Below are positions 477-18,094 of a stretch of 38,543 nt of DNA, one piece after another. The notes below the pieces were generated by a model. It made no database searches, was not told the DNA's origin, and saw only the letters and a program-made list of their open reading frames with translations. This DNA comes from Alphaproteobacteria bacterium (GTDB lineage: Bacteria > Pseudomonadota > Alphaproteobacteria > UBA828), in contig JAJDUK010000049.1 in assembly GCA_022826665.1 (NCBI GenBank), forward strand, positions 1 to 38,543. The letters run 5' to 3'. Positions within the stretch are counted from its first letter, which is position 1; each line of letters starts with the position of its first letter. The translations under genes and the position numbers were made by a program.

Positions 477-1202
477 GTGACCGAGCCGGCGGCGACACCC
501 ATCCGCGTCGCGGAGCCCGAATCGGGCGCCGATTACGGCACGCGCGCGGACTGGATCGCCGCCGGCCTTTCCCTGTCCGGCAGCGCGTCGGAGCAGTCCT
601 GGGCCTTTGCGGACTGGCTTGCCACCGGCCACAGCGCCTGGGGCAAGGATGCGATGACCGAGGCCGCCGCGGCGACCGGCGCGAGCCCCGGAAAAATCCG
701 GCACTATCTCAAGACCTCAACGGTTTACCCTCAGAGTCGCCGGCGACTCACCCTGACATTTTCTCACCACATGGAGGCCGCCTTCCTGCCCGAGGGCGAG
801 CGCGAGCAGCTGCTCGACCGGGCGGAGGCGGGCGAATGGAGCCGCGCGGAGATCCGCGCCGCCGCCCGCGAGGCCTCGAAGGACGGCAAGCTCAAGCGCC
901 AGGCGGCCGAGATCAGGGCGCTCAAGCGCGCGCTGAAGGCTGCGCAGGCGAACGCCCTGGACACCACCAGGCAGGCGCGCTCGCGGCTTTATGCCGAGCG
1001 CCGCGTGATCCGCGAGGCCGCGGGCCGCAGCGCCGACCTGGTGGAGGAGCTGGCCGACTCGGGCGCGCTCGACGATCTGCACGGCAACGCGCGCCGCGCC
1101 CTGGTCAAGGCGTTGCAGCAGTCCGGCCAGGCGATGGCGGCGGAAGTCAACAAGGCGCTCGCGCGGATGAAGGCCGCCTCCGAGAGGATCGAGCAGGCGT
1201 GA
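477..1202 (+). CDS. phage DNA-binding regulator-like protein with coiled coil
   Basis: Predicted 241 residues from a GTG start (product begins MTEPAATPIR), with AGGAGG about 8 bases upstream. Residues about 25-130 follow a pattern seen in phage and LmbU-like regulators: a small helical domain, then SFSHH-like text (here FSHHMEAAFLP) and an LDRAEAGEWSRAEIR segment. Residues about 135-240 are Ala/Arg/Glu-rich and likely coiled coil. Its position before the transposase suggests an early regulatory or DNA-organising role, but that is inference. The last bases overlap the transposase start in a GTGA arrangement, so the two are translationally coupled. Helix-turn-helix character is likely but not proven from sequence alone. 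Confidence 0.65.
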   Translation: MTEPAATPIRVAEPESGADYGTRADWIAAGLSLSGSASEQSWAFADWLATGHSAWGKDAMTEAAAATGASPGKIRHYLKTSTVYPQSRRRLTLTFSHHMEAAFLPEGEREQLLDRAEAGEWSRAEIRAAAREASKDGKLKRQAAEIRALKRALKAAQANALDTTRQARSRLYAERRVIREAAGRSADLVEELADSGALDDLHGNARRALVKALQQSGQAMAAEVNKALARMKAASERIEQA

Positions 1203-3022
1203 CCGCGTGGCCGTCGTGCAGCTTCGACAAGGCCGGCAACGCCGATGCACGGCCCGTGAAGGCCCACGTCAACGGCGCGACCTGCGACCCCGAGACAGGC
1301 GAGATCTTCGAACCCTGGGAGAGCGCCACGGAGGCGGAGCGGGCAGCCGCTGCCGCCCGGCTGGAGACCGTGAAGCTCTCCCAGGAACTCCACACGGCCG
1401 GCGTGCCGCGCAGCTGGGCCGACAGGGTCGTGCGGCACGGCCCCGGCGTTTCCGTCTCCGCCGTGAGCGCCTGGCGCCGTAAGGCCGGTCGTGCCGCACC
1501 CGGCCGTGCGCTCGAGGCCCTGCTCGACAACCCCCGCACGGGGCGCCCGCCTGCCGCCTGGCGCGAGCCGGGCGCGGACGTCCTGTGGCGGCTCTGGTGC
1601 ACAGACTACCTGCGCGAGGAAGCGCCCACGGCGACGGCCGTGCACCGGCGCCTGGCCGACGTGGCGGCGGAGCGGGGCTGGTCGCTGCCGCACCTCGGCG
1701 CCTTCAGGCGCCGCACCGACCGCGAGTTCACCAGGGCCGAGGTCGTCCGGGCCCGCGGCGGCGCGCTCGCCGCGATGGACCTGGTGCCCCACCAGACCCG
1801 CACCGTGGCGGGCCTCAAGCCGCTCGATATCGTCAACGGCGACGGCCGCAGGTTCGACGTCACGGCGACGCTGCCCTCGGGCAAGGAGGGCCGGCCTGCC
1901 GTCTGGGTGTGGCAGGACGTGCGCACCCGCAAGGTGCTGGCCTGGCGCGCCGGCGAGACCGAGAGCGCCGACCTGGTGCGGACGTCGCTGCATGCGCTCA
2001 TCACGGACCACGGCGTGCCCGGCCGGGTCCTGGTCGACTCCACCCGCGCCGCCTCGGCGAAGTGGGCCACGGGCGGGCAGCCCCACCGCAAGCGCTGGCG
2101 CTCCACCGACGAGGAGCTGCCGGGCCTGCTCAAGATGCTCGACATCGGCTACTCGGCGACCACGGTCGACCGGGACGCCGCCGGCCGGGGCAGGGGGCGC
2201 GGGCGGGCCAAGCCGGTCGAGCGCGCGTTCCGCGACCTCGCCAACCATATCGACACCCATCCCCTGATGGCCGGCGCCGGCACCGGACGCTCGCCGGTCG
2301 ACAGGCCCGAGACGCACCGCATGCGCGCAGTGCCGTGGGAGGTGTTCATCGACGTGCTCGAGCGCGCCGTCGCCGAGCACAACGCCCGCGAGGGCCGCCA
2401 GAGCGAGGCGGCCGCCGGGCGCAGCCTGGATCAGACCTGGGCCGAGGAGATCGCCGACACGGTCGTCAGGCGGCTCGCGCCCTCGCAGGCGGCGATCCTG
2501 CTGCTGGCGGCCGAGGACGCCGCGATCGACAACGCCGGCTGCCTGCGGCTCAAGGCCGGCAAGGGCGCCGGCCTGCCCGCCAACCGCTACCACCACCCCG
2601 ACCTGGTCGAGCGCGCAGGCGAGCGTGTCGTCGCCCGCTTCGATCCGGAGGACCTGCACGGCACGGTCCACGTCTTCGACGCCAAGGGGCGCTACGTCTG
2701 CGCCGCCGGCTGCCTGATGCCGGCGGGCTTCGCCGACACGGCCGCCGCCAAGGAGTGGGAGGCCGCCCGCCGGCGCAAGCGCCGCGCGACCGAGACCGGC
2801 CTCGCCGCGCGCCGCGACATGGACGAGCTGCAGCAGACCATGGCGTCGCTGCCCGCGCCGGGTGCGGCCGAGGAGGCCGAGCCCGCTGCGGTCCGCCTGG
2901 TGACCGGCGAGAGCCTGCCCGAGGCCCTGCCCGCCGGCGGGGGCGCCGCCGCAGAACGCCGGCGCAGCCCGTTCCTGGCGGCCCTCAGAACCGTTCAACA
3001 GCTCGAGGAGGACGAGGCATGA
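1199..3022 (+). CDS. Mu-type DDE transposase (MuA-like)
   Basis: Predicted 607 residues, close to MuA (663). It catalyses strand transfer of the phage ends during integration and replicative transposition. The GTG start at 1199 overlaps the upstream stop. The catalytic triad is readable: D215 in NGDG, D280 in VLVDSTRAASAKW and E341 in KPVERAF, each embedded in text typical of the MuA core (VWVWQDVRTRKVLAWR; TGG after the second Asp). Residues about 1-170 hold the end-binding helical domains. The region after about 480 corresponds to the Mu-transposase C-terminal barrel and a tail that in Mu contacts MuB. All three acidic residues are intact, so the enzyme could be active. The next gene overlaps by four bases. 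Confidence 0.95.
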   Translation: MTAWPSCSFDKAGNADARPVKAHVNGATCDPETGEIFEPWESATEAERAAAAARLETVKLSQELHTAGVPRSWADRVVRHGPGVSVSAVSAWRRKAGRAAPGRALEALLDNPRTGRPPAAWREPGADVLWRLWCTDYLREEAPTATAVHRRLADVAAERGWSLPHLGAFRRRTDREFTRAEVVRARGGALAAMDLVPHQTRTVAGLKPLDIVNGDGRRFDVTATLPSGKEGRPAVWVWQDVRTRKVLAWRAGETESADLVRTSLHALITDHGVPGRVLVDSTRAASAKWATGGQPHRKRWRSTDEELPGLLKMLDIGYSATTVDRDAAGRGRGRGRAKPVERAFRDLANHIDTHPLMAGAGTGRSPVDRPETHRMRAVPWEVFIDVLERAVAEHNAREGRQSEAAAGRSLDQTWAEEIADTVVRRLAPSQAAILLLAAEDAAIDNAGCLRLKAGKGAGLPANRYHHPDLVERAGERVVARFDPEDLHGTVHVFDAKGRYVCAAGCLMPAGFADTAAAKEWEAARRRKRRATETGLAARRDMDELQQTMASLPAPGAAEEAEPAAVRLVTGESLPEALPAGGGAAAERRRSPFLAALRTVQQLEEDEA

Positions 3023-3999
3023 CGGACGGCACCGTAACGTTGTTTCCGGAGGCGCGGCCGAGCGAGGCCCCTGCCTCCGACTACGCCGCCACCGTCGCCG
3101 CCTGCAAGGCGGAGATGAAGGCGGCGGGGCTTTCCATAGCCAAGGCCGCCCACGAGATGGGGCGGGGCGTGTCGCAGTCCGTGCTGTCGAAGTGGCTGCG
3201 CGGCATCTACGAGGGCGACGTCCCGAAGGTGACGGAGCGCGTTTCGCTCTGGCTCTCGACCAGGGCCGAGGCCGCGCGCCGCGACCTGGCCGCCGCCGGC
3301 CTCGATCGCCACGTCGACCTCGGCGTCACCGAGGAGATCGAGACCGCGCTCGGCCACGCCCAGGCGACGGGCGACATCGTGCTCGTCCACGGCCGCGCCG
3401 GCCGGGGCAAGAGCTGGGCGATGGAGCGCTACTGCGCGGGCCACACCGCCGCCTACGGGCTCGCCATGACAGAGGCTGTGCAGACGCTGTCCGGCATGCT
3501 CGGCCTCGTGGCGGAGGTCGTCGGCGCCGGCGGCGGCCATCCCTCGGCGCTCGCCGCCGAGACGGCGATCGTGGAGCGGCTGACGGGGCGCCGCGCGCTG
3601 CTCTGCGTTGACGAGGCCGATCTCCTGCGGCCCCGGCTGCTCAACCAGCTGCGCTGCATCCGCGACCGCGCGCGTTGCGGACTGGCGCTGCTCGGCCGCG
3701 ACCCTCTCTGGAAGACTGTCGCCCGGTCCGAGCGGTGCGAGCCGATCGTGGGGCGGATCGGCATTCGCCTGCCGCTCGCGGCCACGGCCGAGGCGGACAT
3801 CCTCGACCTGGCGCGCGGCGTGCTCAGCCGCGCGCCCACCAAGGCCGAGAGGGATCACCTGCTCGGCGTCGCACGCGGCGACGGCGGCCTGCACGCGCTG
3901 CGCCGCCTCTTCGCCAGGGCGTGGGTGCTGGCGCGCGCCGGCGGCAACCGGGGCATCTCGGCCGGCGACATCGCGGCCGCCCGCGAGGAAGCCGCCTGA
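3019..3999 (+). CDS. Mu-type AAA+ target-selection ATPase (MuB-like)
   Basis: Predicted 326 residues; MuB is 312. In Mu this ATPase coats target DNA, delivers it to the transposase and gives target immunity. Residues about 25-85 form a helix-turn-helix (KAAHEMGRGVSQSVLSKWLRG), as in MuB. The ATPase core has a Walker A at residues 126-132 (GRAGRGKS, K131) and Walker B at 194-199 (LLCVDEA, D198/E199). The C-terminal about 80 residues are helical, as in the MuB C-domain. ATG overlaps the transposase stop as ATGA, so both are made from one message. Confidence 0.93.
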   Translation: MTDGTVTLFPEARPSEAPASDYAATVAACKAEMKAAGLSIAKAAHEMGRGVSQSVLSKWLRGIYEGDVPKVTERVSLWLSTRAEAARRDLAAAGLDRHVDLGVTEEIETALGHAQATGDIVLVHGRAGRGKSWAMERYCAGHTAAYGLAMTEAVQTLSGMLGLVAEVVGAGGGHPSALAAETAIVERLTGRRALLCVDEADLLRPRLLNQLRCIRDRARCGLALLGRDPLWKTVARSERCEPIVGRIGIRLPLAATAEADILDLARGVLSRAPTKAERDHLLGVARGDGGLHALRRLFARAWVLARAGGNRGISAGDIAAAREEAA

Positions 4000-6505: not shown

Positions 6506-6715
6506 ATGAGCGAGCGCCGCTGCCGCAAGTGCGGCTGCACCGAGGACCGGGCCTGCGTCGACTTCTGGGGCGACGCCTGCGCCTGGTCGGCCTCCGACCC
6601 CACTCTCTGCAGCTACTGCGACGAGAACGTGCCGTGCGATCCGGGCGGCCCGCCTCCGGCGCGCGCGGCCTTCGCAGGCGCCGGCGCCACGGGCGTGGTG
6701 AGGGGCGCGTCATGA
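6506..6715 (+). CDS. small Cys-rich zinc-binding phage protein
   Basis: Predicted 69 residues. Residues 6-45 carry CRKCGCTEDRAC, a Cys in DACAW and CSYC near residues 36-39, a pattern of small phage proteins thought to bind zinc. Function unknown. The G8 tract lies at the ribosome-site position. The stop overlaps the next ATG (ATGA). Confidence 0.7.
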   Translation: MSERRCRKCGCTEDRACVDFWGDACAWSASDPTLCSYCDENVPCDPGGPPPARAAFAGAGATGVVRGAS

Positions 6716-7644: not shown

Positions 7645-8072
7645 GCGCTCCCCTCCACCTCCTGCGCGGCTTCGTCCAGTGGGAAGACCGGCGCACCGGC
7701 GAGCCGATCAAGACGGTCGACGAGGCCGAGTCCTGGGTGCGCCACATCGCCGAGTGCGGCTGCGAGCGTTTCTACACCTGGTCGAGCCGGACGCCGCGCC
7801 GCGCCGAGGAGATGGAGGGCGGCTCGGTCTATTTCGTGGCGAAGCGCCGCGCCTTGTTCCGGATGCCCTTCGTCGAGGTCGAGCCCGACGGCGACGGCTG
7901 CGCGATCTGCATGCGCCCGGAGCTGATCCGCTGCGAGCAGTACGCGGTCGGTTTCGCGCGCGGCTGGCGCTACCTCGCGGACAAGGATGCGCCGCCCGAC
8001 CTGGTGCGGGCCGCCGCCGGCGATCCCCCGCCGGAGATGGCGCGCGACCTGAAGGAGATGGGCCTTGCCTGA
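7641..8072 (+). CDS. DUF1489-like protein
   Basis: Predicted 143 residues from a GTG start. The order of motifs matches DUF1489, a family known mainly from alphaproteobacterial chromosomes: TPRRAEEMEGGSVYFVAKRR, then C-I-x-M-RPELIR, then FARGWRYLADKDAPPDL. Function of the family is unknown. Finding it in a phage early operon, between a zinc-ribbon gene and gemA, suggests capture from a host or a phage branch of the family. It overlaps gemA by eight bases. Confidence 0.75.
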   Translation: MSAPLHLLRGFVQWEDRRTGEPIKTVDEAESWVRHIAECGCERFYTWSSRTPRRAEEMEGGSVYFVAKRRALFRMPFVEVEPDGDGCAICMRPELIRCEQYAVGFARGWRYLADKDAPPDLVRAAAGDPPPEMARDLKEMGLA

Positions 8073-8727
8073 GCCCGCGAACGACCAGCGCAAGCGGCTG
8101 ATCCGGCGCATCCACGCCGAGGCCCGCTCGCGCGGCATGGACAAGGAGGCCCGCGTCGCGCTGCAGCGCCGGGCCACCGGCAAGGAGAGCTGCGCCGACA
8201 TGACGGCGGTGGAGCTCCGCAGCGTGATCGCCGAGATGGGCCGCTCCCGCGACCGGCTTCCCAGCTCGCCGATGACGGGCAAGGTCAAGGCGCTCTGGAT
8301 CAGCGCCTGGCATCTCGGCGTGGTGCGCGACCGCACCGATGCCGCCTGCGCCTCCTGGCTCAGGCGCCAGACCGGCCTCGACGCGGCCGCCTGGGCCAAG
8401 CCGGCCGCCATGGCGAAGGCGGTCCAGGCGCTCAAGTCCTGGCTCGCGCGCGAGGCGGGCGTCGACTGGCGCCCGCACCTGTCGCTCGGCCGCGACGGCC
8501 GGGAGCGCGAGGTCGAGCGCCCGCGGGCGCGGGTGCTGGAGGCGCAGTGGCGCATCCTGCACAAGGCCGGCCGGGTGCGGATCGCCGGCGACGCCGCTCT
8601 CGGCGCCTACGCCTCCGAGCACGCCGGCCTCGGCCGCCAGGACTCCCACCTGGCGCTCACCGACGAGCAGGCCGACGCGCTGATCCGGCACTTCGGCGAG
8701 ATGATCCGCGCGGGGGCCGCGACGTGA
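8065..8727 (+). CDS. gemA: GemA-like regulatory protein (DUF1018)
   Basis: Predicted 220 residues from a TTG start with GAAGGAGATGG just upstream. The N-terminal part matches the Mu GemA/gp16 family (RLIRRIHAEARSRGMDKEARVALQRRATGKESCADMTAVELRSVI). In Mu, GemA/Mor-region genes modulate host gene expression and DNA supercoiling during lytic growth. The middle (KVKALWISAWHLGVV, FLRRQTG-like text at about 95-105) and C-terminal helices also fit. Directly precedes the Mor gene, as in Mu. Confidence 0.85.
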   Translation: MPEPANDQRKRLIRRIHAEARSRGMDKEARVALQRRATGKESCADMTAVELRSVIAEMGRSRDRLPSSPMTGKVKALWISAWHLGVVRDRTDAACASWLRRQTGLDAAAWAKPAAMAKAVQALKSWLAREAGVDWRPHLSLGRDGREREVERPRARVLEAQWRILHKAGRVRIAGDAALGAYASEHAGLGRQDSHLALTDEQADALIRHFGEMIRAGAAT

Positions 8728-13235: not shown

Positions 13236-13805
13236 ATGCCGCTGCCGGCCAAGATCGCCACGCTTCCGGAGGACGTGCGCCAGGAGCTGCACCTGCGGGT
13301 GATCGACAGCGATTTCACGGACTACAAGGGCCACTCGGAGTGGCTCAAGTCCAAGGGGTACGAGATCAGCTACGTGGCGGTCTGGCGGTATTTCCAGGAC
13401 GTCCGGGCAGAGATCCGGAAGGAGCTGCTCGCCATCTCCGTGTCCGCCGCTTCCGTGGGGCTCTACGCCGCTCTCGAGAAGCGGTCGGGCGAGGACTTCG
13501 CCCTCGCGTCCCAGGGCATGCTGCATCGCGTCCGGCACGAGAAGCTCCGGGAGGCGATCGATTCGGGCGAGATCACGCTCGAGGACCTGGAGCTCTACGA
13601 AAAGTTGGAGCGCGGCCACGGGCTGACGCGGCTGCGGAGAGAGCGCGAGCGGGCGCTGCGCTCCAAGAGGCAAGAGGCTGCGCCCGGTAAGGCCGCGCCG
13701 GCAGATCCTCGCGATCGCGCCGCGGCGGCGGAGGTCGCGAAGGGCGGCGATCCCGTCGAGACCATGAAGCGGATCCGCCGCGACGTCTACGGCATCCATG
13801 ACTGA
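13236..13805 (+). CDS. small terminase subunit (DUF3486, Mu gp27-like)
   Basis: Predicted 189 residues. Text matches DUF3486: an N-terminal HTH (LPEDVRQELHLRVIDSDFTDYKGHSEWLKSKGYEISYVAVWRYFQ, spread over residues 9-55) followed by long helices. It recognises phage DNA and directs the large terminase in packaging. The end overlaps the large terminase start by eight bases, as expected for the pair. Confidence 0.85.
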   Translation: MPLPAKIATLPEDVRQELHLRVIDSDFTDYKGHSEWLKSKGYEISYVAVWRYFQDVRAEIRKELLAISVSAASVGLYAALEKRSGEDFALASQGMLHRVRHEKLREAIDSGEITLEDLELYEKLERGHGLTRLRRERERALRSKRQEAAPGKAAPADPRDRAAAAEVAKGGDPVETMKRIRRDVYGIHD

Positions 13806-15204
13806 CGCCGCCGTCCCGCTCTACGACTATCAGCGCGCCTGGTTCCAGGACCGGAGCCGGTTCAAGATCGGCCTCTGGTCCCGCCAGGTGGGCAAGACCT
13901 TCACCACGACGCTGGAGATCGTCGACGACGTGATGGAGGCCCGCGCGGCGGGCCGTGCGTCACCCTGGCTCATCCTGTCGCGCGGCGACCGGCAGGCCCG
14001 CGAGGCGATGCGCGCCGGCATCCAGACCCATGCGAAGGCCTACGGCCTGGTCTTCGAGGAATCGGAGTACGACCTCGATATCGAGGGCCAGCGCTACCGC
14101 GCCAACGAGTGGGACGCCGGCGGCGGCAACATCGTCACGGCGCTGCCGGCCAACCCCGACACCGCGCGGGGCTACTCGCGCAACGTCTTCCTCGACGAGT
14201 TCGCCATTCACCAGCAGAGCCGCGACATCTGGGGGGCGCTCTACCCCACCATCACGCGGGGCTGGAAGATCCGCATCACGTCGACGCCGAAGGGCAAGTC
14301 GGGGAAGTTCTACGAGCTGATGACCAGCCAGACCGGCCAGTGGTCGAAGCACGTGGTGGACATCTGGCGTGCGGTCGAAGGCGGCCTCCCGGTGGATGCG
14401 GACGAGCTCAGGGCCGGCCTCGCGGACGAGGACCTGTGGCGCCAGGAGTACCTCTGCGAGTGGCTGGACGAGGCGAGCGCCTGGCTGCCCTACGATCTGA
14501 TCGCCGCCTGCGAGGACCCGGAGGCCGGGCGTCCCGAGCTCTACGAGGGCGGCCTCTGCTACCTCGGCAACGATATCGGCCGCAGGCGCCACCTGTGGTG
14601 CACGGCGGCGGCCGAGATGGTGGGCGACGTCGCCTGGGTGCGCGAGCTCAAGACGCTCGAGCGCCGCCCGTTCGCCGAGCAGGACGCGGTCCTCGACGAG
14701 ATGATGGGCCGCTACCGCGCGGTGCGCCTCGCCATGGACCAGACCGGCATGGGCGAGAAGCCGGTCGAGGACGCCAAGGGACGGTATGGCGAGAACCGGG
14801 TCGACGGCGTGCTGTTCTCCGCGCCATCGAAGCTGGATATGGCGACGCATCTCAAGGAGCGCTTCGAGGACCGCAAGATCCGCATCCCCCAGGGCGACAC
14901 GGTGCTGAGAGCCGATCTGCACTCGGTGCAGAAGATCGCCGGCCCCACCGGGCAGATCAGGCTGCTGGCCGAGGAAACCGACGACGGCCACGCAGACCGC
15001 TTCTGGGCGCTCGCGCTCATGGCGAGCGCGGCCGCCGAGGGCAGGCCGGAGTACGGCTACACCCCGGTCCGCACCGGCGAGAGCTCCCGCCGGCGCAGCT
15101 TCTTCGGAAGGCCCGATCACAGCGGCGACTTCCTGCCGGGTGCGCCGGGTGAGGACCGCTACGGCCTCATGGGCCGCGCCCGCTTCGACCAAGGCACTTG
15201 GTAG
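13798..15204 (+). CDS. terminase large subunit (Mu gp28-like)
   Basis: Predicted 468 residues. It is the packaging motor with an ATPase and a nuclease domain. The Walker A-like motif is SRQVGKT (residues 28-34), and Walker B with the catalytic Glu is VFLDEF (D133/E134). The motif TSTPKGKSG near residues 161-169 fits the coupling motif. Nuclease acidic residues are D259 (GNDIGRR), D314 (MDQTGMG) and D400 (GHADRFWA). All motifs look intact. For a Mu-type phage this enzyme cuts host DNA next to the prophage during headful packaging. Confidence 0.92.
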   Translation: MTDAAVPLYDYQRAWFQDRSRFKIGLWSRQVGKTFTTTLEIVDDVMEARAAGRASPWLILSRGDRQAREAMRAGIQTHAKAYGLVFEESEYDLDIEGQRYRANEWDAGGGNIVTALPANPDTARGYSRNVFLDEFAIHQQSRDIWGALYPTITRGWKIRITSTPKGKSGKFYELMTSQTGQWSKHVVDIWRAVEGGLPVDADELRAGLADEDLWRQEYLCEWLDEASAWLPYDLIAACEDPEAGRPELYEGGLCYLGNDIGRRRHLWCTAAAEMVGDVAWVRELKTLERRPFAEQDAVLDEMMGRYRAVRLAMDQTGMGEKPVEDAKGRYGENRVDGVLFSAPSKLDMATHLKERFEDRKIRIPQGDTVLRADLHSVQKIAGPTGQIRLLAEETDDGHADRFWALALMASAAAEGRPEYGYTPVRTGESSRRRSFFGRPDHSGDFLPGAPGEDRYGLMGRARFDQGTW

Positions 15205-15213
15205 GGGACTGCG

Positions 15214-16842
15214 ATGGCCACCACCCTGCTCGACCAGTACGGCCGGCCGATCAAGCGCAGCGTCCTGAAGCGCGAGCTCTCCTCGCCTTCGTTCGCCTCC
15301 GTCCGCTCGATCATCGGCACCCACCATGTGCGCGGCCTGACGCCGCAGCGCCTGGCTACTGTCCTGCGCGAGGCCGAGGACGGCGACGCGGAGGCCTACC
15401 TCGACCTGGCCGAGGACATGGAGGAGCGCGATCTCCACTATCTCGCCGTGCTCAGCACGCGCCGGCGCCAGGTCAGCCAGCTCACGATCACCGTGGAGCC
15501 GGCCGACGACTCCGCCGAGGCCGAGGCGGACGCCGAGCTGGTGCGCGAGTGGGTCGACCGCCAGGAGCTCGAGGACGAGCTCTTCGACCTGCTCGACGCG
15601 ATCGGCAAGGGCTTCGCGGTCTGCGAGATCATGTGGGAGATGTCCGAGCTCCAGTGGATGCCGATGCGCCTGGAGTATCGCCTGCCGCGCTGGTTCGAGT
15701 TCGACCGCGAGACCGGCAGCGAGCTTCTCCTGCGCGATCGCAGCGGCGATCTCGGCCTGGCCGAGCTCGAGCCCGCAAAGTTCGTGGTCCACCGGCACGC
15801 CGCCAAGTCCGGCGTGCCGATCCGGGGCGGCCTCGCCCGCTGCGCAGCCTGGGCATGGATGTTCAAGAACTACACCACCCGAGACTGGGTGCGCTTCGTC
15901 GAGGCCTACGGCCAGCCGCTCAGGCTCGGCAAGTACGACAAGGGGTCCTCCGACCACGAGCGCGGCGTGCTGCTCGGGGCCGTCTCCAAAATCGCGGCCG
16001 ACGCGGCCGCCATCGTGCCCATGGGCATGGAGATCGAGTTTCCGGAGCCGAAGGACGCCGCCGCGCGGTCCGAGATCTACAAGGACCTCCTGGAATACAT
16101 CGACGCCCAGGTCTCCAAGGCGGTGCTCGGCCAGACGCTCACCACAGACACCAGCGAATCGGGCGGCGGCGCCTACGCGCTGGGCAAGGTCCACGACGAG
16201 GTCCGCCACGACATCGAGCGCTCCGACGCGCGCCAGCTCGCGGCGACGCTCAACCGCGACATCGTCCGCCCGCTCATCCTGCTGAACCGGGGCGAGCGCG
16301 AGCAGCTTCCCCGCATCGTCATCGGCCGCGAGGAGCAGAGCGACCCCGGCATGCTCTCCGAGGCGGTGTCCAAGCTGGTGCCGCTGGGCCTGCGCGTCGG
16401 TCAGGTCGAGATGCTGGGCAAGCTCGGCCTCTCGGAGCCTGGAGAGGACGAGGAGGTTCTCGAGGCGCGCGCGCCGCTGCCGATACCGGGTTTCGGCGGC
16501 GATCCGGACGATGACCAGGAGGACGATGAAGACGACGAGGGCGCGGTGGCCAGGGCGCTCGCCAGGAGCGAGCGGGTGCGCCGCGACGAGATCGACCGCG
16601 CGATCGCCGACCTCCTCGACGGCGACGGCTGGGAGCCCCTCATGGAGCCCGTGATCGAGCCGGTCCTGGCCGAAGCCAGGGCGGCGCTCGAGCGCGGCGA
16701 GAGCCTCGAGGCGTTCCGCGACCGCCTGCCCCAGCTGTTCGCGGCCATGGACGATTCCCGCCTGGTCGAGACGCTCCGGCGCATGGGCTTCAGCGCGAGG
16801 CTGTCAGGCGACGCAGGGCTGGGCGGCGGTCGCGAGGGCTGA
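15214..16842 (+). CDS. portal protein (DUF935, Mu gp29-like)
   Basis: Predicted 542 residues. It forms the dodecameric channel at the head vertex to which terminase docks. Family features: YGRPIKR near the start, AYLDLAEDMEERDLHYLAVLSTRRRQV at about 50-90, a central GFAVCEIMWE-type segment, WMFKNYTTRDWVRFVEAYGQPLRLGKYD, and VLGQTLTTDT-type text near residue 307. The C-terminal 120 residues are acidic, with a DDDQEDDEDDE stretch and a helical end. Full length compared with Mu gp29 (about 512). Confidence 0.92.
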   Translation: MATTLLDQYGRPIKRSVLKRELSSPSFASVRSIIGTHHVRGLTPQRLATVLREAEDGDAEAYLDLAEDMEERDLHYLAVLSTRRRQVSQLTITVEPADDSAEAEADAELVREWVDRQELEDELFDLLDAIGKGFAVCEIMWEMSELQWMPMRLEYRLPRWFEFDRETGSELLLRDRSGDLGLAELEPAKFVVHRHAAKSGVPIRGGLARCAAWAWMFKNYTTRDWVRFVEAYGQPLRLGKYDKGSSDHERGVLLGAVSKIAADAAAIVPMGMEIEFPEPKDAAARSEIYKDLLEYIDAQVSKAVLGQTLTTDTSESGGGAYALGKVHDEVRHDIERSDARQLAATLNRDIVRPLILLNRGEREQLPRIVIGREEQSDPGMLSEAVSKLVPLGLRVGQVEMLGKLGLSEPGEDEEVLEARAPLPIPGFGGDPDDDQEDDEDDEGAVARALARSERVRRDEIDRAIADLLDGDGWEPLMEPVIEPVLAEARAALERGESLEAFRDRLPQLFAAMDDSRLVETLRRMGFSARLSGDAGLGGGREG

Positions 16843-16849
16843 CGATCCG

Positions 16850-17680
16850 ATGCCCAAACCGGAGATCCTCAACCTCCCGCCGCGCGAGGCGGTGGAGCAC
16901 TTCAGGGCCAAGGGCTACCACGTCGGTTACAGCTGGCTCGACACCGACGCCCTGATGCACCGCTACTCCTTTACCGTGGCCAAGGCCATGGACCTCGACA
17001 TCCTCCAGGACATTCGCGGCGAGGTCGATCGCTCGATCGCCGAGGGCATCACCTTCGAGGAGTTCTACGACAACCTGGAGCCCCGCCTGAAGGCCAGGGG
17101 ATGGTGGGGCCGGCAGCGGATGGTCGACCCGCTCACCGGCAAGGTGCGGACGGTCGAGCTCGGCTCGCCCCGGCGCCTGCGGATCATCTTCGACACCAAC
17201 CTGCGGATGTCCTACTCCAGGGGGCGGTGGGATCGCATCCAGCGCGTCGCGCAGCGGCGGCCCTACCTGCGCTACGTCGCCGTCCAGGACGCCCGCACGC
17301 GGCCGGAGCACATGGCTTGGCACGGCACCATCCTGCGCTGGGACCACCCCTTCTGGCAGACCCACTATCCGCCGAACGGCTGGCGCTGCCGCTGCACCGT
17401 CGAGCAGCTCTCCGAATTCGATCTCGAGGAGGACGGCTTCCGGGTGTCGGACGGCCCGCCGGCCGGATCGGAGACGACGCGGCCGTGGTTCAACAAGCGC
17501 ACCGGCCAGACGATCCAGGTGCCGGTCGGGATCGACCCCGGCTTCGGCCACAACGTCGGCCTGCTGGACCTGTCGGCCGAGGCCGAGCGGCGGTTCGAGG
17601 AGAGGCTGCGCAACGCGCCTTCGGACCTCGCCGACGCAGCCCGGCTCGCGTTCGCGCTCGGCGCTCAAGGGGAGGGCTGA
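16850..17680 (+). CDS. MuF-type minor head protein (phage head morphogenesis)
   Basis: Predicted 276 residues. It contains the SPP1 gp7/MuF domain: FDTNLRMSYSRGRWDRIQ, then LRYVAVQDARTRPEHMAWHG and the hallmark YPPNGWRCRCTVEQLS. It acts in early head assembly near the portal. It is the last phage gene before the right end. In Mu this gene is followed by protease, scaffold and capsid genes; here only 243 bp remain. The C terminus ends naturally in GAQGEG before a GC-rich stretch and a T9 run. Confidence 0.88.
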   Translation: MPKPEILNLPPREAVEHFRAKGYHVGYSWLDTDALMHRYSFTVAKAMDLDILQDIRGEVDRSIAEGITFEEFYDNLEPRLKARGWWGRQRMVDPLTGKVRTVELGSPRRLRIIFDTNLRMSYSRGRWDRIQRVAQRRPYLRYVAVQDARTRPEHMAWHGTILRWDHPFWQTHYPPNGWRCRCTVEQLSEFDLEEDGFRVSDGPPAGSETTRPWFNKRTGQTIQVPVGIDPGFGHNVGLLDLSAEAERRFEERLRNAPSDLADAARLAFALGAQGEG

Positions 17681-17710: not shown

Positions 17711-17870
17711 GGCCGTTTCACCCCCTCTGCACGGCCGGAAAATTGGGCGTTTCCAGGCGGTGCAGGCCCTGTTCACGGCGACATACGCAGCGACTTCTGT
17801 CCGCGCCGCGAATCGCCCGGTCGGACGCTCCGGCGCCTATCCCTTTGCGCCGCCGCCGCTTTTCGCCACC

Positions 17871-17923
17871 TTACACCTCTTTACGGCTCTTTACGGATCC
17901 GCTGCGACTTTCGTCCTTTTACA
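17871..17923. other. right end of the prophage with transposase-site-like repeats
   Basis: Read inward from the ssb junction (minus strand), the end starts TGTAAAAGG, giving the TG...CA termini of Mu-family elements. Further in are CCGTAAAGAG twice and GTGTAAGGTG. On the + strand these are three tandem 10-bp units at 17871-17900 (TTACACCTCT, TTACGGCTCT, TTACGGATCC) plus TTACAG at 17919. Repeated short sites at an end are typical of transposase binding. The exact end comes from where ssb similarity stops. Confidence 0.65.
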
Positions 17924-18094
17924 GCGGTGCCACTCTGTCTTGTCGATGCGCTGGCCACCGGCGGCCCTGTCGATATACGACTCATCGGTCGCGATGCTCA
18001 TGTTGGCGACGCGCCCGCCGGAGGCGAGGCTGTTGACAGTGACGTCCGCACCCAGGCGGCCGATGACTTCTGCGCGGTTCAGTCCGAAACTCAT
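17891..18094 (-). pseudogene. ssb: single-stranded DNA-binding protein gene, 5' part, interrupted by the prophage
   Basis: The 67-codon frame starts MSFGLNRAEVIGRLGADV with a GAAGGAG ribosome site. Residues 1-57 match the SSB OB-fold: LASGGRVANMSIATDESY and the hallmark DKTEWHR. After R57 the similarity stops abruptly and the frame runs nine codons into prophage end sequence (CKRTKVAADP) before a stop. The lost part includes most of the OB-fold and the acidic tail, so the product should be inactive. The missing 3' part is expected beyond the left end of the prophage, outside the window. Since SSB is essential, this is probably a second, plasmid- or phage-like copy. Confidence 0.8.

Follow-up and report, generated by a model that had tools for sequence, protein, structure and literature searches.

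A Mu-like prophage interrupting an ssb paralogue, with head genes apparently split over two outward-reading arms

In the 4.63-Mb genome under study (G000, 106 contigs), an ssb paralogue has almost certainly been interrupted by a Mu-like transposable temperate phage, which was inserted by DDE strand transfer at GGC^ACCGC with duplication of ACCGC and later received an IS insertion. The analysis centred on a window of 38,543 nucleotides, which is contig C24 in full, and was extended to contig C30, where the other end of the prophage lies. The event is ordinary except for the gene layout of the phage, which is uncommon and has already been described.

Results

Both host junctions lie within one ssb gene

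The ssb homology in the window is on the minus strand (MSFGLNRAEVIG...DKTEWHR) and ends at 17924, and the inward bases that follow are TGTAAAAGGACG. The interrupted 5' part of the gene (codons 1-57) reads from 18094 to 17924 and ends after codon 57 at GAGTGGCACCGC, adjoining a TG-starting phage end; the bases directly past TEWHR, into the element, are TGTAAAAGGACGAAAGTCGCAGCGGATCC, and this ssb half terminates in GAGTGGC ACCGC. Because the window is the whole of C24, the ssb remainder and the second phage end were found not in it but on C30. An earlier note, made from the window alone, had placed an exact Mu-like prophage junction at 17924 within ssb and had predicted, beyond the window, the rest of ssb, a TG-starting end and a copy of about 5 bp of GCGGT (17924-17928; ACCGC on the ssb strand). 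The junction was confirmed, and all three predicted features occur exactly as foreseen on C30 at 8580-8585, where the second GCGGT copy occupies 8580-8584. The C30 junction reads ...GTCCGGCTACA, ACCGC, GTCGTCACATTCC...; on the minus strand, C30 reads ...CAGCGACTTTTGTCCGGCTACA followed by ACCGC GTCGTCACATTCCAGGACGG..., the missing partner of the window half. Joined with a single ACCGC, the two halves give an uninterrupted 150-aa SSB. A related, uninterrupted version of this locus is present on C71; flanks included, it is 89% identical to the window half and 94% identical to the C30 half. A match to TGTAGCCGGAC at C30:8126 was considered as the second prophage end and discarded as unrelated. Both termini are of the form 5'-TG...CA-3', and the 5-bp duplication at the two junctions agrees with the NYSRN consensus of the 5-bp duplications in Citromicrobium Mu-like prophages (PMC12486242).

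The genome contains 15 matches to ssb (PF00436), only two of which, on C30 and C82, comprise the C-terminal half alone. Many of the 15 have a common neighbourhood (C71, C82, C93 and C30/C24), and this suggests an ssb-carrying family of related mobile elements in the genome. A second N-terminal half (C16:26540-26701; about 6541-6702 of locus L019) breaks at the same WHR codon and shares GGCACCG, and the C-terminal half on C82 (24997; about 9998 of locus L018), broken at that codon as well, adjoins two tandem tyrosine integrases. The WHR codon may be an integrase attachment site that coincides with the Mu-like insertion point. Related Arm-DNA-binding tyrosine integrases are greatly expanded in G000 (46 matches) and in relatives within its genus (41 matches in G016), and they often stand in tandem, two or three together. 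Near ssb, the window also holds a HicA toxin-like gene (PF07927, 18547-18789), possibly with a HicB partner upstream.

An IS separates the two parts of the prophage

C24 opens with 141 bases of an IS end, identical to the start of C83; the opposite IS end lies on C30 and C78, and the closing bases of C30 are identical to the start of C78. The IS flank on C30 (...CGACACC, then the IS) pairs with that on C24 (the IS, then ACACCCTGG...) through a 5-bp duplication, ACACC (142-146 of the window and C30:35964-35968), and C78 pairs with C83 via GTCCGGC. Crossed pairings between the C30/C24 and C78/C83 flanks had nothing in common. The two ends of one IS are therefore present at two or more genomic places, and this IS broke the assembly. 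Without it, the prophage would measure about 45 kb, with 27.4 kb on C30 and 17.8 kb on C24. The link from C30 through the IS to C24 is drawn from sequence comparison and rests on the 5-bp IS duplication, the complementary gene content of the two contigs, and the ssb gene and end motif that they have in common. An assembly artefact was rejected on the basis of the IS duplication and of the complete relatives described below.

A motif shared by both ends distinguishes an L-type from an R-type end

The prophage terminus in the window, TGTAAAAGGACGAAAGTCGCAGCG (17900-17923, minus strand), includes the outer copy of a 17-bp end motif, GGACRRAAGTCGCWGCG (17900-17916); an inner copy at 17786-17802, also on the minus strand, is a candidate second transposase site. 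With at most one mismatch allowed, the motif occurs three times in the 4.63-Mb genome, at these two positions and at C30 8592-8608, and thus ties the two ends together. Scanning with a 22-bp version placed sites at distances of 7 and 121 for the window end, and of 7 and 30 for the C30 end, where the inner site lies at about 8614-8635; the candidate sites are about 114 bp apart at the window end and tandem, 23 bp apart, beside the tail genes at the C30 end. Compared as inverted repeats, the terminal 32 bases of the two ends match at 23 of 32 positions. When the whole 250-bp ends were aligned to each other the result was no better than with shuffled sequences; the similarity is confined to the terminal 30 bp or so and the motifs. 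At each end the 17-22-bp motif recurs with Mu-like spacing, and its copies may represent MuA-type sites.

The earlier note had drawn attention to GTAAA-type repeats at the window end. The array is real: a 10-bp unit, CCGTAAAGAG, is repeated at 17871-17896 (minus strand), with two exact units at 17877-17896 and a degenerate third (TRF scores 34-40). However, it is limited to the window end, and GTAAA repeats were not found near the C30 end. As best candidates for transposase sites these repeats were rejected on that ground, and they are probably not such sites; the 17-bp motif, which is the repeat shared by both ends, appears the better candidate.

For comparison of site spacing, the known MuA consensus was applied to the Mu record, where it gave sites at 6 and 28 at the right end, and at the left end a site at 6 and then, on the same strand, only beyond 100 (151). 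By site spacing and neighbouring genes (the tandem sites of the C30 end adjoin the tail genes, as R1/R2 do in Mu), the window end would be attL-type and the C30 end R-type by Mu convention. The terminus described in the earlier note is genuine, but its designation as the right end is not upheld.

Transposition and packaging genes lead to one end, capsid and tail genes to the other

The arm in the window reads on the plus strand. The MuA-like DDE transposase lies in an open frame at 836-3022 (PHROG 310, E 8e-97; 38% to Mu A; single copy in the genome); because similarity to known transposases sets in only around codon 150, translation probably starts near 1200. It is followed by a MuB-like AAA ATPase transposition protein (3094-3999, start approximate; PHROG 296, AAA_22), and by a GemA-like early protein (8065-8727), matched by tblastn to the GemA annotated in phage Mwe-Yong1. 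Further along are the terminase small subunit (13236-13805; PHROG 426, E 4e-9), the terminase large subunit (13798-15204; PHROG 5909/2), the portal (15214-16842; PHROG 113, E 2e-150) and the MuF minor head protein (16850-17680; PHROG 220, E 2e-91), which is the final gene and stands 243 bp from the phage end.

The arm on C30 reads on the minus strand towards the C30 end, and carries an S24-type repressor, a head maturation protease, a virion protein, a contractile tail sheath, a tape measure, baseplate proteins, a tail fibre, a 2OG-Fe(II) oxygenase and a small terminal gene; a Dam-type methylase is oriented opposite to the others. The repressor was assigned from a PHROG 4 match on C30 and from the S24 domain of its counterpart in Rhodospirillaceae bin65.

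The element therefore has the MuA-type transposase and MuB-type ATPase (PHROG 310 and 296; AAA_22) that mark a Mu-like transposable phage and, over window and C30 together, the Mu-type head genes (terminase, portal, MuF, protease). It departs from the canonical order of Mu, in which terminase, portal and MuF lie directly upstream of protease, capsid and tail on one strand, as the former are on C24 (plus) and the latter on C30 (minus). Both arms read outward, with repressor, protease, capsid and tail towards the C30 end, and transposase, MuB, terminase, portal and MuF towards the window end, and the capsid module is split as in KS10 and Mwe-Yong1. Relative to Mu, the half running from repressor through A, B, terminase and portal to MuF is inverted, so that MuF adjoins attL and is parted from the protease.

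The layout recurs in complete relatives

An alphaproteobacterial MAG (CATOSZ, G022) contains two complete 40-kb elements, both on a single 2.4-Mb contig (CATOSZ010000003.1, 817877-857911 and 1034343-1074009). Their 5-bp duplications are GACGA and CCGGG, and their genes are arranged in the same two arms. Their MuF is 64-68% identical to that of the C24/C30 prophage over the aligned part; however, they have siphovirus-type tail genes, other protease and capsid families, and another end motif. At least eight copies in this MAG terminate about 250 bp past MuF; the Mu-like element copies there (at least eight, loci L063-L077) are heavily nested in other repeats and interrupted by them. The notion that ssb is a specific target for such phages is unsupported, as both complete copies lie at sites with different duplications.

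In Rhodospirillaceae bin65, protease and repressor are on the minus strand, and terminase, portal and MuF on the plus strand; a transposase was not found between the repressor and terminase-portal-MuF blocks. A relative at locus L146 (G023:C50, 84-95 kb) shares the arm layout; MuA and MuB genes were not found between its repressor and terminase. An IMG/VR locus (L037) has an apparent phage end soon after MuF, and a scan of IMG/VR with the window transposase found no relative. MuF relatives in more distant phages keep MuF, protease and capsid on one strand, and the closest MuF relatives depart from that order. The order in L046, in which MuF, portal and terminase are inverted beside the protease, is a different rearrangement and was set aside. 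The MuF relatives in L036, L037, L065, L069 and L081 have differing C-terminal extensions, and the window MuF has none; by eye, these are ADP-ribosyltransferase-like in L036 and L037 and Hint-domain-like in L081, and they resemble the tails of polymorphic toxins, carried here by a phage-terminal gene.

Discussion

Both host junctions, the TG/CA ends, the duplication, the end motifs and the MuA and MuB genes were observed, as was a head and tail gene set in two outward-reading arms flanking an S24-type repressor. The junctions, read in the light of what is established for Mu, imply DDE transposition with a 5-bp staggered cut; insertion by the DDE transposase with a short target duplication had been proposed in the earlier note. 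The transposase would have joined the phage to the ssb paralogue at GGC^ACCGC, the staggered cut duplicating ACCGC, and an IS would subsequently have entered the early region of the prophage and split the assembly. MuA would bind the 17-22-bp end motifs, MuB would help in target capture, and the phage would replicate by replicative transposition.

It is very improbable that the inverted order is a one-off rearrangement of a single, genuinely inserted prophage: although in most of the MuF relatives examined the gene immediately precedes the protease and shares its strand, at least eight G022 copies have MuF some 250 bp from the end of the element, L037 has it near the end, and the complete layout is seen again in G022, in Mwe-Yong1 and, minus the transposition genes, in bin65. 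Slightly less probable still is the reading that C24 and C30 hold unrelated ends of two Mu-like prophages, inserted at the same site of two ssb paralogues, and that only their pairing creates the odd gene order. The two contigs are indeed unjoined in the assembly, and among the 15 ssb matches at least one other pair of halves is interrupted at this codon; however, each contig carries exactly what the other is without, transposase and MuF are each single-copy in the genome, the end motif occurs at these two ends only, the IS duplication pairs C30 with C24, and complete relatives show the same layout.

The least probable explanation, and one already disfavoured, is that a tyrosine integrase split the window ssb, as seems to have happened to the C82 half, which is broken at the same codon beside its two tandem integrases. 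The C24/C30 element has TG/CA ends, a 5-bp duplication, inverted terminal motifs and MuA/MuB, and two relatives have unrelated 5-bp duplications at unrelated sites, all of which speak against an integrase.

This prophage resembles Escherichia phage Mu in its MuA (38%), MuF (51%) and MuB-like ATPase homologues, in its TG/CA ends and 5-bp duplication, and in its end sites, which are R1/R2-like and in tandem beside the tail genes, and L-like and spaced at the opposite end. In Mu, however, all genes from A to the tail read in one direction, whereas here the repressor-to-MuF half is inverted and attL is beside MuF, and the end motifs differ in sequence. Microcystis phage Mwe-Yong1 (MZ436628.1) has its capsid-tail arm and CI on the minus strand, and transposase, MuB, GemA, terminase and portal on the plus strand to the end of the record. 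Its recognisable homologues are A, B, GemA, TerL and the methylase; its tail genes are without tblastn homology, and its record also contains an annotated integrase. In Burkholderia phage KS10, terminase, portal and MuF stand apart from the remaining head genes; the KS10 authors called this arrangement unique in 2008 and described the first 17 kb or so as inverted relative to Mu (PMC2628397). As in the C24/C30 prophage, the capsid module is split, and MuF, portal and terminase are the terminal outward-reading genes at one end; in KS10, however, A and B are on the protease-capsid-tail arm, and TG/CA ends and a target duplication are unreported (PMC2628397). A study in Leptospira regarded a pair of divergent arms flanking the regulators as typical of B3, and reported separated terminase-portal blocks (PMC8705779). 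These prophages share with ours the divergent arms parted by regulatory genes and a TerS-TerL-portal block separable from the other head genes, but B3-type transposases make 6-bp duplications (PMC8705779), as against 5 bp here. Given the KS10, Leptospira and Citromicrobium precedents, insertion and layout are both of known kinds.

An exactly bounded Mu-like prophage has thus been recovered although it was cut across contigs, and it adds a myovirus-tailed member to the phages whose capsid genes are split over two outward arms. The evidence leaves about an even chance that these elements represent a dispersed lineage of transposable phages, with contractile as well as siphovirus-type tails, that keeps the whole immunity-transposition-packaging half inverted relative to the capsid-tail half, with attL abutting MuF. 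If this is true and the inverted layout is stable, both the starting point of packaging and the control of late genes must differ from the rules of Mu. The complete elements, with both ends in hand, allow a direct test of the end from which packaging starts when attL adjoins MuF.
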